NCBI RefSeq assembly: GCF_900240265.1
Contig: NZ_LT964739.1
Span: 2,191,901-2,197,801 of the forward strand
Direction of reading: 5' to 3'
Source: Galactobacillus timonensis
GTDB lineage: Bacteria; Bacillota_I; Bacilli_A; Erysipelotrichales; Erysipelotrichaceae
DNA: 5,901 nucleotides
Shown here: positions 1 to 5,801 of the stretch, in pieces
How the letters are laid out: every line of letters starts with the position of its first letter
Position numbering within the stretch: position 1 is the first letter of the stretch
Position numbers and translations under genes: made by a program
Notes under the pieces: generated by a model
Seen by the model: only the letters and a program-made list of their open reading frames with translations
The model's database searches: none
Told to the model about the DNA's origin: nothing

Positions 1-1237
1 CTATCGCTTTGAATTCCGGAAAGGTCTCCAGTTCTTCTTCTCTGAGCTTTGATGAATTCAGAAGACGTGCTGCACGGATGAATTCTCTGCGGCAGTGCAT
101 CCAGCATAATGTGTTGATGACAGACCCATTTCTCTCGGAGGCGTAAAGCGAATATGCCGCATAGGCATCAGAGGTGATCTTTCCTTTGAAATCATCTCCG
201 TAGAATTCTCTGAGATGATCCGTGCTGCGGGTCAGCTCAAAGCAGAAACAGATAATCTTATTGCCGGTATAGAACTCGCTGGAAGTATGAAGCCAGTAAT
301 AGCTTGTTGACCCTGCGGACCTTCCGTCATTGATCACACGTCCGAAGGTTTCATCTGCCTGCTGGTGGTCCTGCTGTTTCAGAAGATCAGCCATGTACTG
401 CCATACCGGGAGAAAGCACTGATCAGTGAATGTCATGATCCATACTGACATCGTTCCTCTGGTCAGCCGGAAACCTTCTGCGGCCATGTCTTTTTCCATC
501 CGGTAGTACGGCACATACAGACAGAATCGGGAATACAGAATATCGGCAAGCAGCGATGATGAAACAATAGAACCTGGAAGAGGCTTTCCTTCATAAGGGG
601 TATATTCAATCTCTCTGCAGCACGTTCCATGCGAAATGACAGGAACATAGACGCACTGAACATAATGACGGCTCGGAACGCATTCAACGGTCCTGTATTT
701 CTTCCAGGAAAAGATATACCAGCTGGTTCCATACTGTTCGTTCAGCTGATCAGGATTGATCTGGTAAATGTTTCGGACCGGAAGACCGGACAGATCCTTC
801 TCCCGCTGTCCTTTCTTCCGTATGCCATGACCTTTATGATCAGAAAACGCAGATCTTGAAGTAATAACCGGTGCTTTCGGAGATTCTTCCGCTTCTTCTG
901 CCAGCGGATCCTCTGCGATTTCTTCTTCCTGTGCAATCTCTGACAGCTTTTCTGTTCCGCGACCGAACAGATCGTTATTCCGCATCTGAAGCTGCTCCGT
1001 GCACTTCTGAAGTAAGCCGCTCAGCCGTTCATTCTCACGCTTAAGGGTTTCTGACAATTCCTTCATTGTCTGATAATCCCGGGTCATGTTTTTCTCGGCT
1101 TCTTCATGACCGTCAAGAATCGCAAGAACTTCAAGATGAGAAGCGATGACATTCCTGAGAGCGCAATTCAGCTCCGGCTTTTTCAGTTCCGGAAGTTTCC
1201 GATTCAGCTCATTCAGCTCAGAAGAAGTCATCACCAT
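1..1237 (-). CDS. tnpC: IS66-family DDE transposase TnpC, C-terminal end off the window
   Basis: This is the catalytic transposase of the IS66 element. The frame is open for 412 codons from ATG at 1237 to the left edge. Residues 55-85 form a likely coiled coil (KRENERLSGLLQ), followed by LFGRGTEKL (90-98), the family's hallmark LFGR-SEKL motif. The catalytic part shows D295 in QQADETF, D357 in TSDAYAAYS and the CWMHCRREF motif (378-386, CWAHxRRKF in relatives). The third acidic residue should lie beyond base 1. The CxxC pairs of the usual zf-IS66 zinc finger are not seen in residues 150-220, where only scattered cysteines occur. The start is supported by GGAGAA 8 bases upstream. The gene begins 18 bases after the accessory gene's stop, so the two are probably co-transcribed. 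Family is secure; activity is unknown. Confidence 0.92.
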   Translation of the reverse strand, partial: MVMTSSELNELNRKLPELKKPELNCALRNVIASHLEVLAILDGHEEAEKNMTRDYQTMKELSETLKRENERLSGLLQKCTEQLQMRNNDLFGRGTEKLSEIAQEEEIAEDPLAEEAEESPKAPVITSRSAFSDHKGHGIRKKGQREKDLSGLPVRNIYQINPDQLNEQYGTSWYIFSWKKYRTVECVPSRHYVQCVYVPVISHGTCCREIEYTPYEGKPLPGSIVSSSLLADILYSRFCLYVPYYRMEKDMAAEGFRLTRGTMSVWIMTFTDQCFLPVWQYMADLLKQQDHQQADETFGRVINDGRSAGSTSYYWLHTSSEFYTGNKIICFCFELTRSTDHLREFYGDDFKGKITSDAYAAYSLYASERNGSVINTLCWMHCRREFIRAARLLNSSKLREEELETFPEFKAI

Positions 1238-1255
1238 AGCTGCAGTTCTCCGGGA

Positions 1256-1651
1256 TTATTTCAGAAGATCACTGCTGGCTGTTCTGATCCGTTCTGCCAG
1301 ACTGTCAGTCTGCTTCAGTGCATATAAAAGCCGATCATTTGTTTTCTGCAGGCTGCGCAGTTTCTCCTCGCACTCTGCCAGCTGCAGCTGCAGTTCTTTA
1401 TTCTCTCTGCATTTTTCCTCATACTGCTTTTTCAGTTCTTCCTGATCTGCTGCAGCGGCAGTCACAGCAGGAACTTCTTTTGGCTTTCTCCCGCGCTTTC
1501 CAGTAGGAATAATCTCACCGGTTGCCGGATCAATCTTTCCGATCACTCTTCTTCTGGAGCGTGACTGTTTCTTCTCCGGATCCCAGTAGCTTTCCGATTC
1601 GTAAACGTAAGTGGTATCGGTGTCCTTGTGATACTGCCTGATCTGTGCCAT
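1256..1651 (-). CDS. IS66-associated accessory protein with AT-hook-like motif and coiled coil
   Basis: This 131-aa protein lies between tnpB and tnpC in the same orientation, so it is almost certainly part of the IS66 element. Residues 14-50 (YVYESESYWDPEKKQSR, then IGKIDPATGEIIPT) resemble a short N-terminal module that I associate with Bacillota transposase-type proteins. KRGRKPK at 52-58 resembles an AT-hook DNA-binding core. Residues 70-115 are rich in Glu, Lys, Leu and Gln and look like a coiled coil. No catalytic motif is visible. An SD-like GGAGGG (minus strand, 1659-1654) precedes the ATG, and a near-consensus promoter lies just upstream. It may be a DNA-binding or oligomerising partner of TnpC, or a regulator; that role is inference from position and composition. 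Confidence 0.8.
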   Translation of the reverse strand: MAQIRQYHKDTDTTYVYESESYWDPEKKQSRSRRRVIGKIDPATGEIIPTGKRGRKPKEVPAVTAAAADQEELKKQYEEKCRENKELQLQLAECEEKLRSLQKTNDRLLYALKQTDSLAERIRTASSDLLK

Positions 1652-1678
1652 AAGCCCTCCAAGTTACATTGCAATAAT

Positions 1679-1707
1679 AATATATCACTTGTTATGACAC
1701 GTGTCAA
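1679..1707 (-). promoter_or_regulatory. Sigma-70 type promoter for accessory gene and tnpC
   Basis: On the minus strand TTGACA (1707-1702) is separated by exactly 17 bases from TATATT (1684-1679). The -35 box is perfect and the -10 box is one base from consensus. The predicted start near 1672 would leave a leader of about 20 bases holding the GGAGGG site before the accessory ATG at 1651. The promoter lies downstream of the tnpB stop, so the second half of the element can be transcribed independently of tnpA-tnpB. Confidence 0.75.
1695..1706. promoter_or_regulatory. Perfect 12-bp palindrome over the -35 box, candidate operator
   Basis: TGACACGTGTCA is a perfect 12-base palindrome covering five of the six bases of the -35 hexamer. 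That position suits a repressor site for a dimeric DNA-binding protein. The binding protein is unknown. The accessory protein or TnpA of the same element would be candidates, by inference only. Confidence 0.45.
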
Positions 1708-1713
1708 GAATAA

Positions 1714-1745
1714 AAAGTGACATTGTAGAATATAAATGTCACTTT
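1714..1745 (-). terminator. Hairpin plus T-run at the end of tnpB
   Basis: AAAGTGACATT (1714-1724) and AATGTCACTTT (1735-1745) are perfect 11-base inverted repeats with a 10-base loop. Read on the minus strand the stem runs into TTTTTATTCTT, which resembles an intrinsic terminator, although the stem is AT-rich. The stem contains the tnpB stop codon (1741-1739). It would end or attenuate the tnpA-tnpB transcript just before the internal promoter. It could instead be a protein-binding repeat, since GTGACA also resembles half of the nearby palindrome. Confidence 0.55.
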
Positions 1746-2128
1746 GTCTCACTCTTATCATTATTTTCTGGAGTTCTGTTACGGTTCGGAAATGTCTCTC
1801 TGATCGTTCCCTCAATGGCGATTCCGGCCATCAGTCTCTGATACTGCTCAGGAGTGATCAGTCTGGCTTCATCACTATTCCGCGGCCACTGGAATCGGTT
1901 GCCTTTGGAAAGCCGAAGGGTATACATTCCCATTCCGATCCCTTCAAAGCAGATCCCGCGAATCCGATCGCACTGGTTTCCGCAGAAGAGATAGAGGACT
2001 CCTTTTTCGAATGGATCCAGTTCATAGTTAAGTCTCACGTAGGCTGCCAGTCCATCCATTCCGCGCCGAAGATCAACCCGGCCGCAGCAGATAATGACCC
2101 GCGAGAATCCAGTTCCGTCTTTAAGCAT
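1739..2128 (-). CDS. tnpB: IS66 Orf2-family protein TnpB
   Basis: This 129-aa protein belongs to the IS66 Orf2 family and is unrelated to the RNA-guided nuclease also called TnpB. Diagnostic stretches are GRVDLRRGMDGLA (16-28, typically GRTDMRKGFDGLA), VLYLFCGNQCDRIR (44-57), GNRFQWPR (76-83) and LITPEQYQRLMAGI (90-103). The family is needed for transposition of three-gene IS66 elements, but its biochemical role is not established. Its ATG lies inside the end of tnpA (8-base overlap, GATGCTTAA), which suggests translational coupling. The stop lies in a hairpin that may terminate transcription. The C-terminal tail after residue 105 is polar and longer than the family core. Confidence 0.92.
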   Translation of the reverse strand: MLKDGTGFSRVIICCGRVDLRRGMDGLAAYVRLNYELDPFEKGVLYLFCGNQCDRIRGICFEGIGMGMYTLRLSKGNRFQWPRNSDEARLITPEQYQRLMAGIAIEGTIRETFPNRNRTPENNDKSETK

Positions 2129-2465
2129 CTTTCAGCACCCGAAGCACCATGCGGAGCGTGCTCTCGCTTGAAGGATGATTCACTGTCACTTTACAGCGGT
2201 TCACTTCAATCTGAACCGGAGCAGATTCTGCATCAGAAATCGCAGCAGGCAATGCCGGGCTTTCCAGATATTCTGTGATATCCACAACATCACAGCTGCT
2301 CGATTCCTGCTCTCTGATCCGCTTCGCCCAATAGTAGAATCTGCGTTCCTTTATTCCGTGTTCCTTACACCAGGTTCTGGTCTTGATCTCCGGGCTGCGC
2401 CGTTTCCATTCCTCCACAAGCTTCCGCCAGTATTCTTCATTTTCCTGACGCGTCAATCCTTTCAT
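2121..2465 (-). CDS. tnpA: IS66 accessory protein TnpA
   Basis: This is the first gene of the IS66 element, 114 aa from the chosen ATG at 2465. A GTG at 2474 is in frame, but it falls inside the GGAGGTGA ribosome binding site (2478-2471), so the ATG is preferred. Residues 26-50 (IKTRTWCKEHGIKERRFYYWAKRIR) match the helix-turn-helix-like region of TnpA, with the family's Cys, FYYW and basic residues. The C-terminal part (VNRCKVTVNHP, then LRMVLRVLKDA) matches the family's ending. TnpA is required with TnpB and TnpC for transposition in IS66-type elements and probably binds DNA. No clear promoter is seen between this gene and the IS tip. Confidence 0.87.
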   Translation of the reverse strand: MKGLTRQENEEYWRKLVEEWKRRSPEIKTRTWCKEHGIKERRFYYWAKRIREQESSSCDVVDITEYLESPALPAAISDAESAPVQIEVNRCKVTVNHPSSESTLRMVLRVLKDA

Positions 2466-2484
2466 GAAAATCACCTCCAGGTTT

Positions 2485-2571: not shown

Positions 2572-2624
2572 GATTTGTCCTCCTCTCAGCCATTCAGGCA
2601 TCAAAAAAGACATACCCATCTGCC

Positions 2625-2740
2625 CGCTGCTTATGCGTAAGCATTCCGCAGAAGTTCAGCCGATTCACGGCGTTCTGATCACACACGCAGAGAAATGGTT
2701 GCGTGCGTAACTTCAATGGAATGACCTGCAATGCAGGGCT
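2625..2740 (-). other. Hairpin-rich leader upstream of the interrupted start codon
   Basis: Four short inverted repeats lie in about 115 bases: CCTGCA-A-TGCAGG (2725-2737), an arm pair at 2681-2689 and 2700-2708 that pairs fully on the minus strand with one G-U, GCCG-ATTCA-CGGC (2659-2671) and TGCTTA-TGCG-TAAGCA (2628-2643). The G-U pair favours a minus-strand RNA. They precede the AGGAGGA and ATG at 2571, so this could be a regulatory leader or the hairpin end of another mobile element. No known riboswitch class is recognised. Confidence 0.35.
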
Positions 2741-2811
2741 TCAAAGTATGTCTTTATCGATTAAATGATAGCATGGTTCAGAAAATATTAGCGAGATTTC
2801 AGATTTTAAAT

Positions 2812-3120
2812 GTGAACCTCCCCGCCTAAGTCCTAACGTACTATAGACGGAGCTTCCAAGGGCTTGTGTGCCCTCAGACTTCCGTCTGCTAAACGATTCG
2901 GTGACAGCACAGCACACAAGCCGAAACTTATGTACCCATCTGCACTAACGTTTCTCAGACTTATGTCAGGATCGTCAGACTGCCATAGGAAGCAGAGGGT
3001 ACAAGACCCTGTTGATCTTCCACAGGTCAGCTAACGTCCTTTGGGTTCCACTCCCGATCCCAGAGATTTTGGTCATAAGATCGGGTGATTCCATAAACAG
3101 CCCGCGGATCTACAGGGACC
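2812..3120 (-). ncRNA. Orphan IS200/IS605 TnpB-type guide-RNA (omegaRNA) scaffold and right end, probable
   Basis: There is no credible ORF here, but the minus strand holds many stems: CCCGATC/GATCGGG (3053-3059, 3079-3085), AGGGT/ACCCT (2996-3010), CCTGT/ACAGG (3008-3026), an 11-base perfect pair (2861-2871, 2912-2922) enclosing CAGAC-TTCC-GTCTG, and a final GC-rich stem CTCCGTCTA/TAGGCGGGG. The region ends GGGGAGGTTCAC at 2812. A terminal stem followed by GGTTCAC resembles, from memory, the right ends of Bacillota IS200/IS605 elements, where the TnpB guide RNA overlaps the end of tnpB and the bases just beyond serve as guide. No tnpB with its RuvC and zinc-finger motifs is adjacent, so this is either a decayed remnant or a non-autonomous scaffold. 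The 5' limit is uncertain. Another structured mobile-element RNA is possible. Confidence 0.5.
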
Positions 3121-3197
3121 ACTTTATGCAAATACGGCTTTTTTAATTACATCAACGATTCCAGATTGTTTGCTCGTGAATTAGGAATCTGCATCAA

Positions 3198-3695
3198 TCA
3201 GGTTCCATGCTTTTTATTGACAGTAAAAGTGTATTCTTCCTTATCCCGGGTTTCATAAAATCTTCTGACACACTTCAACACGCCTGTGGCTTTGGTATAT
3301 TTGTACTTTTCGTATGGTTGGTACGAATTGTCAGATGAGTTTTCATTCGAGCCTTCACCAGTGAATGAGACGTCCGGCATGGATTTTGCAAGCACCATTG
3401 CCAGCAGTGTAGGAAAATGAATTTCGTCTTTGCCTGTCTGTGTCCCGAACCACAGGCTGATTTCCGCCTGCATGGCATCGTTTTTGCAATAATAGAAATC
3501 GAGGAAATCTTCGCAGGTTACATCGTTGGCTGGCATGATGTAGTTTCCTATTTCAACCTGCACATCGCTCAGATTTTCCATCGCAGGCCATCCCCAATCC
3601 TGATGCTCCCTGGCGAAATCAGAAATAACCTTGGCAGCTTGTTCTGCGTCTTCCTTGTTCTTGTACTGAATTTTGAAAAACATCCATTCCTGCAT
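3198..3695 (-). CDS. Hypothetical protein, 165 aa, possible immunity-type protein
   Basis: I do not recognise a named family. The ATG at 3695 is preceded by AGGAGGAG (3710-3703) with a 7-base gap, so translation is well supported. The protein is soluble, with no signal peptide or membrane segment. A beta strand (MFFKIQYK, 5-12) and an amphipathic helix (14-31) begin it, as in small alpha/beta ferredoxin-like folds. A hydrophobic helix (95-106) is followed by SFTGEGSNENSSDNSYQPYE (110-129), a polar Asn/Ser/Gly loop, and then strand-like segments (KCVRRFYE, EYTFTV). It follows the tail of a truncated gene on the same strand after about 108 bases. That order would fit a toxin-immunity pair, but this is inference from context only. 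Confidence 0.75.
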   Translation of the reverse strand: MQEWMFFKIQYKNKEDAEQAAKVISDFAREHQDWGWPAMENLSDVQVEIGNYIMPANDVTCEDFLDFYYCKNDAMQAEISLWFGTQTGKDEIHFPTLLAMVLAKSMPDVSFTGEGSNENSSDNSYQPYEKYKYTKATGVLKCVRRFYETRDKEEYTFTVNKKHGT

Positions 3696-3803
3696 ATTAT
3701 TACTCCTCCTAATGGTTCAATATACTGATGAGCCAAATGACTACGATTGCGATAAACTGTATATCGTCAAGTAAGTATCCCTGAAAATATTACAGACTTT
3801 ATA

Positions 3804-3896
3804 TCAGATTATCTGTCTCAACACCCTCTCATAATATTCTTTATAGTTTCCATTGAAATGATACTCAATTGCAGAAGTGAACGCAAGGGATCTGTT
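3804..3896 (-). pseudogene. 3' tail of a truncated upstream gene
   Basis: A minus-strand frame without a start codon ends at TGA (3806-3804). Its last residues are polar and aromatic (AIEYHFNGNYKEYYERV, then LRQII) and read like the C-terminal helix of a real protein. Upstream in this frame there is a TAA just beyond 3896, next to GGGATCTGTTGCA (3888-3900), which resembles an IS tip, so the gene was probably cut near 3888. It lies upstream of the 165-aa gene on the same strand and may once have shared an operon with it. Confidence 0.35.
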
Positions 3897-3968
3897 GCAT
3901 TAACTTAATCGAAACAGAAACCATGATGCTGTTGCAATCAGTTGCTTTGATTCCGAATAATGATTTCA
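3897..3968. other. Unassigned junction sequence before the IS30 element
   Basis: This short stretch contains no ORF I can support. CTGTTGCA occurs at 3892-3899 and again at 3929-3936. It lies between the truncated gene and the IS30 left repeat and may be a remnant of another insertion or deletion. Confidence 0.3.
3932..3961 (+). promoter_or_regulatory. Weak candidate promoter for the IS30 transposase
   Basis: TTGCAA (3932-3937) and AATAAT (3956-3961) are separated by 18 bases and lie about 50 bases upstream of the transposase start. Both match the consensus only partly. If the element begins at 3969 this promoter would lie in flanking DNA. No better candidate is visible. Confidence 0.25.
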
Positions 3969-3983
3969 GGTCAGGTATAGCCG
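3969..3983 (+). repeat. Left inverted repeat of the IS30 element
   Basis: GGTCAGGTATAGCCG matches the complement of 5711-5725 at 13 of 15 positions. The outer boundary is uncertain because no target duplication is seen. Confidence 0.5.
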
Positions 3984-4010
3984 ATGAAAGAACTAGGAGG
4001 AACTTTCATC

Positions 4011-5345
4011 ATGACTGCTTTTTCTAAGCTGGATCTTAATAAAAGAATGCAGATCCAATCATTTCTTTCAGAAGGATTATCTCTTTCTGCCATCGCTCGT
4101 AAGATTGGTGTTACCACTTCTACCGTTTCAAGAGAGATCAGGCATTTCCGAGTTGAAGATGGCCGCCCTGGACGTTTCAGCAGGAACAGCTGTGCGTTTC
4201 GCAAAGAATGCAAGCGTTGCAATCTCTGCGCAGCAATGGAAACCACATGCCGAAGAAGAGGGAAATCCTGTGCTCACTGCAGATCGATCAACTGCAATAC
4301 CGTCTGCAAGGATTACAGAAAAGAAGTATGCCCCAAACCGGATCGCCCTCCTTATGTGTGCAACCATTGCAATGAGTTTATCCATGGGAAGTGCCCTCTG
4401 ACAAAGTATTTCTACAAAGCAGCAGAAGCACAGGAAGCCGCCCGAACACTGCGCTCTTCTTCCCGTTCAGGTCTGAATCTCACGGAGCAGGAGATTCATG
4501 AAGCCGACGTGCTTCTTTCTCCGCGCATTCGCAAAGGTCAGTCTATTCACCACATCATGGTTTCTGAACCAGAGGTATTCAATTTTTCTGAGCGTCAGGC
4601 TTATATCCTGGTCAATGCCGGGCTGATCTCTGCTCGCCCTATCGATATGCCACGAACTGTGCGAATGAGGCCGAGAAAGCGGAAATCCGTGGAAAAGAAG
4701 GTAGATCGCAGCTGCCGCATCGGCCGAACTTACGATGACTTTTTAAGATACATGGATAAGCATCCGGATGAGCCTGTCCTAGAAGGAGATACGGTTGAAG
4801 GGGTTAAAGGAGGAAAGTGCATTCTTACCCTCACCTGGCGGCAATGGTCTTTTCAGATCGGATTCCTGCGGGATCATAACAATTCGGAGTCTGTAACTCA
4901 GATCATTAACAGCCTGTATGAATCATTAGGCTGCGATAAGTTCCATCAAGTTTTTCCTTCCGTCTGGCTGTTTGACAATGGCTCTGAATTCTCTGATCCG
5001 AAAGAGATTGAAAAGTTCGGTGTATTGGTGTTTTACTGCGACCCTTCTTCGCCCTATCAGAAGGGATGCTGTGAAGTGACACATGAATACGTACGCAGAA
5101 TTCTGCCCAAAGGGACATCATTTGATGATCTGGATCAGGGGTTTATTGATTACATGTATAGCCATATCAACAGCGAGCGCAGAAAAAAGCTGAATAACCT
5201 CTCACCCTTTGAGGCATTCAGCTCCGTTCTGGGAAAGGACGTAATCGAGAAGTACTTCTGTATCAGATGGATTGATCCTCGTTTTGTCCAGCTGAATCAA
5301 TCTCTGAAGTCCACATGGCTTTTCTGTGAAAAGGAGGAAAACTGA
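4011..5345 (+). CDS. IS30-family DDE transposase with cysteine-rich insertion
   Basis: This 444-aa transposase cuts and joins the IS30 ends. The ATG at 4011 is chosen because AGGAGG (3995-4000) precedes it by 10 bases; an ATG at 3984 is in frame but lacks such a site. Residues 8-47 are the IS30 N-terminal HTH (KRMQIQSFLSEGLSLSAIARKIGVTTSTVSREI, shown as consecutive parts at 11-43). Residues 61-128 carry 13 cysteines, several as CxxC, suggesting zinc binding. The core has D260 in LEGDTVEG, D322 in FDNGSEF and E355 in GCCEVTHEYVRR followed by LPKGTSF, matching the family's D-D-E motifs. It is longer than a typical IS30 transposase (about 320-390 aa). The frame is intact, so the enzyme may be active. 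A small gene starts one base after its stop. Confidence 0.92.
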   Translation: MTAFSKLDLNKRMQIQSFLSEGLSLSAIARKIGVTTSTVSREIRHFRVEDGRPGRFSRNSCAFRKECKRCNLCAAMETTCRRRGKSCAHCRSINCNTVCKDYRKEVCPKPDRPPYVCNHCNEFIHGKCPLTKYFYKAAEAQEAARTLRSSSRSGLNLTEQEIHEADVLLSPRIRKGQSIHHIMVSEPEVFNFSERQAYILVNAGLISARPIDMPRTVRMRPRKRKSVEKKVDRSCRIGRTYDDFLRYMDKHPDEPVLEGDTVEGVKGGKCILTLTWRQWSFQIGFLRDHNNSESVTQIINSLYESLGCDKFHQVFPSVWLFDNGSEFSDPKEIEKFGVLVFYCDPSSPYQKGCCEVTHEYVRRILPKGTSFDDLDQGFIDYMYSHINSERRKKLNNLSPFEAFSSVLGKDVIEKYFCIRWIDPRFVQLNQSLKSTWLFCEKEEN

Positions 5346-5776: not shown

Positions 5777-5801
5777 GTAAGCGTCTAATACAGGGTGAAC
5801 T
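5777..5801 (+). repeat. Terminal inverted repeat of IS66 element 2
   Basis: It matches the tip at 2531-2555 (opposite strand) at 23 of 25 positions. Similarity fades just beyond, as expected for two different ends of one IS type. Confidence 0.7.

Follow-up and report, generated by a model that had tools for sequence, protein, structure and literature searches.

The minus strand of a 5,901-nucleotide stretch of Galactobacillus timonensis DNA, the whole of which is referred to here as the window, carries a segment resembling the guide-RNA scaffold of a TnpB nuclease at a place with no tnpB gene, and this raises the question of what such a scaffold is and whether it serves any TnpB. The preliminary description had considered two answers, an orphan RNA working in trans with a TnpB made elsewhere or a remnant. 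With a probability of roughly 0.85, we regard positions 2812-3109 (minus strand, 298 bases) as the right end, truncated on its 5' side, of an element of the IS605 family, which holds the tail of tnpB and a complete predicted TnpB guide-RNA scaffold (omegaRNA or reRNA) and is likely a decaying remnant without a TnpB of its own. The identification as an orphan scaffold of this type was upheld: homologues adjoin intact tnpB genes, the paired positions covary and the element ends at GGTTCAC. The omegaRNA role is a prediction from homology and covariation.

The segment is somewhat shorter than first outlined. Similarity to the closest relative, locus L007 of Lactimicrobium massiliense, ends at 3109, which places the truncation joint between element and unrelated upstream DNA at 3109/3110, and the original extension to 3120 was given up. 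The stretch had also been called gene-free, which fails for 3109-2975 and so applies at most to the remainder: on the minus strand 2975-3109 reads in frame as the last 44 codons and the stop of tnpB (translation IRGLFMESPDLMTKISGIGSGTQRTLADLWKINRVLYPLLPMAV*), 39 of the 44 residues, as counted by eye, being the same as residues 407-450 of the intact TnpB P0003. Within this tail lies hairpin 1 (3053-3085, minus strand; columns 56-88 of alignment A1). The scaffold is closed by a helix with the 5' side GAACC at 3044-3048 (columns 93-97, cells 100% paired) and the 3' side GGTTC at 2814-2818 (columns 346-350), both on the minus strand, and the GC-rich terminal hairpin, helix 11, occupies 2820-2852 of the same strand. 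Covariance model R1 matches 2812-2955, the 2812-3109 copy being one of the seven rows on which it was trained. The word ACGTTAG occurs three times within the RNA, each time in a different helix or loop.

A covariance search with the omegaRNA families had been suggested as a check; no Rfam family matched, the Rfam 15 scan of the whole window giving nothing at E values up to 1, and relatives therefore had to come from a pattern search. The pattern, consisting of the two sides of the closing helix only, returned five loci from a collection of 84,980 species, four of them in Erysipelotrichaceae and aligning along the RNA. The remaining one (L006, Amycolatopsis) was chance-like, blastn at E 1e-3 finding nothing in common with the window, and was set aside. 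L. massiliense provides the closest relative (L007/L010; L007 at G001:C6:193700-194000), with 90.7% identity over 301 aligned columns corresponding to 2810-3109 of the window. Three of the five pattern loci (L005, L008 and L009) lie at the 3' end of an intact tnpB, where the RNA starts in the last codons of an open frame of 434-450 amino acids and extends beyond its stop, and in L005 and L009 a divergent Y1 tnpA stands alongside (Y1_Tnp Pfam matches of 137 and 136 bits). Homologues beside tnpB or IS200/IS605 ends, whose absence had been named beforehand as the refutation test, were thus found. The RNA region overlaps the tnpB 3' end and the right end in these three loci and in L026. Alignment A1 includes, besides two copies from L. 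massiliense, the three that are linked to tnpB. At L007 an rve-type transposase gene interrupts the adjoining tnpB, the left end and tnpA being still present; four other tnpB copies in L. massiliense are intact and of another subfamily, and an intact TnpB of the 2812-3109 subfamily, P0003 (450 aa, 97%), comes from another L. massiliense MAG.

Blastn with the 2812-3109 RNA gave matches in L. massiliense only among 145 family genomes, so that protein and covariance searches were needed. Blastn against phages gave no match. A single 31-base plasmid match (E 0.4) was dismissed, and four IMG/VR contigs with a 16-base 3'-end pattern were attributed to chance; two more specific patterns had zero matches. 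Nothing on this Erysipelotrichaceae RNA was found in the open-licence literature, a scope outside which subscription papers mostly fall.

The frames of 434-450 amino acids beside the relatives' RNA are, by their profile matches and conserved residues, TnpB. P0003 scored above the cut-off of TIGR01766 (42 of 32 bits) and below the curated cut-off of NF040570 guided_TnpB (82 of 100 bits, E 4.3e-23); of the four TnpBs scanned in NCBIfam, none reached the curated cut-off of NF040570 and three exceeded that of TIGR01766. A Cas12f1-like TNB domain in the relatives' frames fell just under the Pfam cut-off. Furthermore, profile A3 matched solved TnpB and Cas12f chains, with 9nzq (3.1e-10) and 9nzp (1.6e-8) as the best, and D221, E310 and D394, which from their motifs are read as the RuvC triad, do not vary in any of the 15 aligned TnpBs.

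The multiple stems seen at the outset were borne out by folding and by covariation. The minus strand of 2796-3130 folds at -128.6 kcal/mol, as compared to -99.9 (sd 6.1) in 100 shuffles, none of which was as low (z -4.72), and its plus strand gave a z of -2.87. In seven related sequences 91.9% of the cells are paired, and both sides have changed in 31 of the 72 pairs versus 18.5 (sd 2.5) in shuffles, a number reached by 0 of 500; the covariation score of the seven sequences was 0.466, against 0.219 in shuffles. Sliding the partner by one column brought the paired cells down to 44-46%, a control tilted towards the structure because the latter came from the same alignment. Although hairpin 1 lies wholly within tnpB codons, 4 of its 8 pairs show changes on both sides, and the pair at A1 columns 59/85 is G-C in the 2812-3109 copy and A-U in L010. 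The 2812-3109 copy forms 69 of the 72 consensus pairs, L. massiliense L010 all 72 and the other five sequences 60-68.

The 3' limit of the element was read from 57 copies, in which identity is 0.81-1.00 over the last five positions and 0.24-0.30 over the next 20; the terminus TTCAC is present in 47 of them. These 57 are the rows, out of 61, that aligned on the model's end, three out-of-register rows and L079 having been dropped. The copies were placed in register by the end of the model, and since the model was trained on seven sequences so ending, the 2812-3109 copy included, the ending itself is favoured, but not the fall in identity after the boundary. GGTTCAC at 2812, which had been proposed as the end of the element, is supported by this similarity, at chance from the next base on. 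With the boundary exactly at 2812, positions 2811-2796 are therefore host flanking DNA and, as had been supposed of the next minus-strand bases, the predicted guide (ATTTAAAATCTGAAAT; 2796-2811, minus strand). Its length of 16 nucleotides was borrowed from ISDra2, in which the last ~16 bases of the reRNA are flanking DNA according to the accessible part of the published account (PMC8612924).

On a rival view, 2812-3109 would be a working orphan guide RNA, transcribed, loaded into a TnpB (or a nuclease-dead relative) made elsewhere and aimed at TTGAT-ATTTAAAATCTGAAAT. TTGAT precedes the left end in the five copies with a left end readable by eye (L026, L027, L029, L009 and L031); L030 has lost its left end and the contig of L005 stops there. 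In the 2812-3109 copy the left end, and with it the place of this TAM, is absent. The word TTGAT plus the first 12 guide bases occurred in 0 of 272 family genomes, which argues against such a function. Exact matches to TTGAT plus 14 guide bases were detected in three IMG/VR contigs, as the orphan reading would have it, yet two of these are of identical sequence, only 14 of the 16 guide bases are matched, and a scrambled TAM also gave three contigs (the reversed word none), so that virus targets are not enriched. The completeness of the scaffold is in line with a functional RNA, whereas three of its pairs are broken as compared to none in L010. On the 2812-3109 branch, 11 changes broke these three pairs versus 4.2 expected from random placing (P 0.32, with low power), and selection on the pairing was accordingly dropped as a claim, there being no measurable constraint in so few changes. 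Partner proteins would be at hand in L. massiliense, where a TnpB of the same subfamily is present in full length and another subfamily has four intact copies, and the accessible part of the ISDra2 work describes experiments with separate promoters for reRNA and TnpB (PMC8612924); however, no promoter-like site was found on the minus strand of 2600-3990 in the window. Taken together, we consider a working orphan guide improbable. The same improbability attaches to a free-standing guide RNA gene that would be expressed by read-through from the upstream gene and used in trans, insertion scars then acting as dispersed guides. The likely source of any read-through transcript is a 165-aa open reading frame just upstream on the same strand (3198-3695, minus strand). 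It had no match in Pfam, NCBIfam or PADLOC. Among 5.8 billion proteins its homologues formed a single cluster (25 members on 4 contigs), and 0 of 70 related genomes contained any.

The reading as a decaying right end is in accordance with what has been lost. Upstream of 3109, blastn aligned nothing with the left ends of L031, L026 or L009, there is nothing like tnpA or the 5' parts of tnpB, and tnpB is represented in cis only by codons 407-450 (P0003 numbering), no other TnpB match being found in the 1.9 kb upstream. As only the last 44 codons of tnpB have been kept, what remains is probably a relic in decay, derived from a system of known type. The remnant alternative mentioned at the outset therefore fits better than use in trans, with the left end gone, 44 codons kept and no detectable constraint. 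The missing left end also bears on the view that 2812-3109 is a PATE-like non-autonomous element, that is, one with two ends moved by TnpA in trans. Despite a close published parallel in Halanaerobium, as far as the accessible part of its description goes (PMC7290912), and two TTGAT words in the minus strand of 3400-3100, blastn gave no left end beside the right one; the PATE identity was dropped and is very unlikely. The terminal hairpin has a look-alike in the L. massiliense left end (CTATAG...TTAGGCGGGG in both) and, given this similarity, probably doubles as a TnpA recognition site, but that the hairpins would serve only as single-stranded DNA for TnpA in a family making no guide RNA is scarcely credible, since ten of the eleven helices are separate from this hairpin and absent from the left end, covary and extend into tnpB codons, and the scaffold adjoins TnpBs with invariant acidic residues.

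TnpB-less copies are common among the relatives of 2812-3109. In the L. massiliense genus group (70 genomes), the model had 69 matches, spread over 23 genomes. Sixty of these copies were examined with their surroundings, and the 28 with at least ~1.75 kb upstream could be judged, most of the others being near contig ends and not judgeable. Of the 28, 12 have a tnpB of the same clade (in L090 its last 151 codons only), one has another TnpB type and 15 have none by tblastn (L093, L099, L100, L107, L115, L116, L117, L120, L121, L122, L124, L125, L126, L127 and L129). A first count of 16 had included L114, which was removed on account of a 466-aa TnpB of another type upstream; in L119 and L128, which were outside the 16, a different TnpB type likewise lies upstream. 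An upstream frame was profile-checked in 12 of the 15 and is not TnpB, and for L093, L099 and L126 the assignment comes from tblastn and a motif scan. Seven of the nine remaining places have tnpB, which brings the TnpB-less share to 15 of 35, a figure biased towards 5'-truncated copies because the search requires a 3' end. The 3' ends of the 15 are intact and their 5' truncations ragged. Thirteen of them retain 39-224 bases by blastn, L117 and L122 having no blastn match, as compared to about 297 in the 2812-3109 copy, the scaffold of which is strikingly complete for a relic, both in its 69 of 72 pairs and in being longer than the 13 measured copies.

Three of these loci call for separate mention. 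The flank of L117 (G193:C24) and L121 (G149:C9) is common to both, related, genomes (88% over 198 bases), and their right ends belong to two different subfamilies, so the same guide stands beside different scaffolds; this points to more than one insertion at the same site or to the exchange of one right end for another. In L. massiliense, L115/L021 (G001:C4:113922-113985) is a right-end relic of ~70 bases, nearest to the 2812-3109 subfamily, which lies directly behind an alpha-amylase-type gene and has an internal deletion in its scaffold.

The window also has features of other insertion sequences. Near-matching inverted ends facing outward, GTAAGCG[CT]CTAATACA[AG]GGTGAAC, are located at 2532-2555 and 5777-5800. 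The former closes IS66-type genes at 2-2474 (minus strand) and the latter appears to open another copy of IS66, which extends beyond the window. An IS30-type transposase (NF033563, above cut-off) is encoded at 3984-5345 of the plus strand, followed by a 124-aa open reading frame without an assigned family.

Judged by sequence, the intact relatives consist of a left end beside TTGAT, a Y1 tnpA, a tnpB divergent from it and a right end overlapping the tnpB 3' end. In ISDra2, TnpA excises the element in single-stranded form and inserts it 3' of TTGAT, while TnpB keeps an RNA from the end of its own message, comprising the right end and ~16 flanking bases; these 16 bases direct TnpB to cut the empty donor site, and repair copies the element back. 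By analogy, the intact Erysipelotrichaceae relatives would work as ISDra2 does. The 2812-3109 copy has lost everything from the left end through about tnpB codon 406, and what is left has neither self-mobility nor a nuclease in cis. Any transcription of it, such as read-through out of the upstream 165-aa gene, would yield an RNA with the guide AUUUAAAAUCUGAAAU at its end. Reading of raw sequence can thus spot a TnpB guide-RNA scaffold without a gene or an Rfam model, and a covariance-supported scaffold is now available for an uncurated Erysipelotrichaceae family. Moreover, if TnpB-less copies were transcribed and loaded in trans, decayed insertion sequences would constitute a reservoir of guides for RNA-guided nucleases.

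Among the systems with which 2812-3109 can be compared, L007 of L. massiliense is the nearest in sequence, with the 90.7% identity extending across all 298 bases, the same fold and the same GGTTCAC end, but it has kept its own left end, tnpA and both tnpB halves, and its flank differs. The ISDra2 reRNA, or omegaRNA, likewise arises where the tnpB 3' end and the right end overlap and takes its guide from the flank, and TTGAT at the left end is shared with the relatives of 2812-3109; by contrast, its scaffold measures ~130 nt as compared to ~240-298 nt, going by the accessible portions of the two reports (PMC8612924; PMC10097598), and its sequence is different, while the copy described here is without a tnpB in cis and known from sequence alone. 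The guide RNAs of TldR, as far as they are covered in the accessible text (PMC13418256), are similar in that TnpB-type guides have been retained outside transposition. However, TldR loci retain a nuclease-dead protein, whereas 2812-3109 has no adjacent protein; a linked nuclease-dead TnpB relative was not found here, and the acidic residues D221, E310 and D394 are kept throughout the 15 relatives. The PATE-like IS605 derivative of Halanaerobium hydrogeniformans, made up in the accessible part of its description (PMC7290912) of a left-end hairpin (28 nt), the last 58 nt of tnpB and a 160-nt right end, has a left-end hairpin where 2812-3109 has none, and both consist of the final stretch of tnpB and a whole right end, the remainder being gone.
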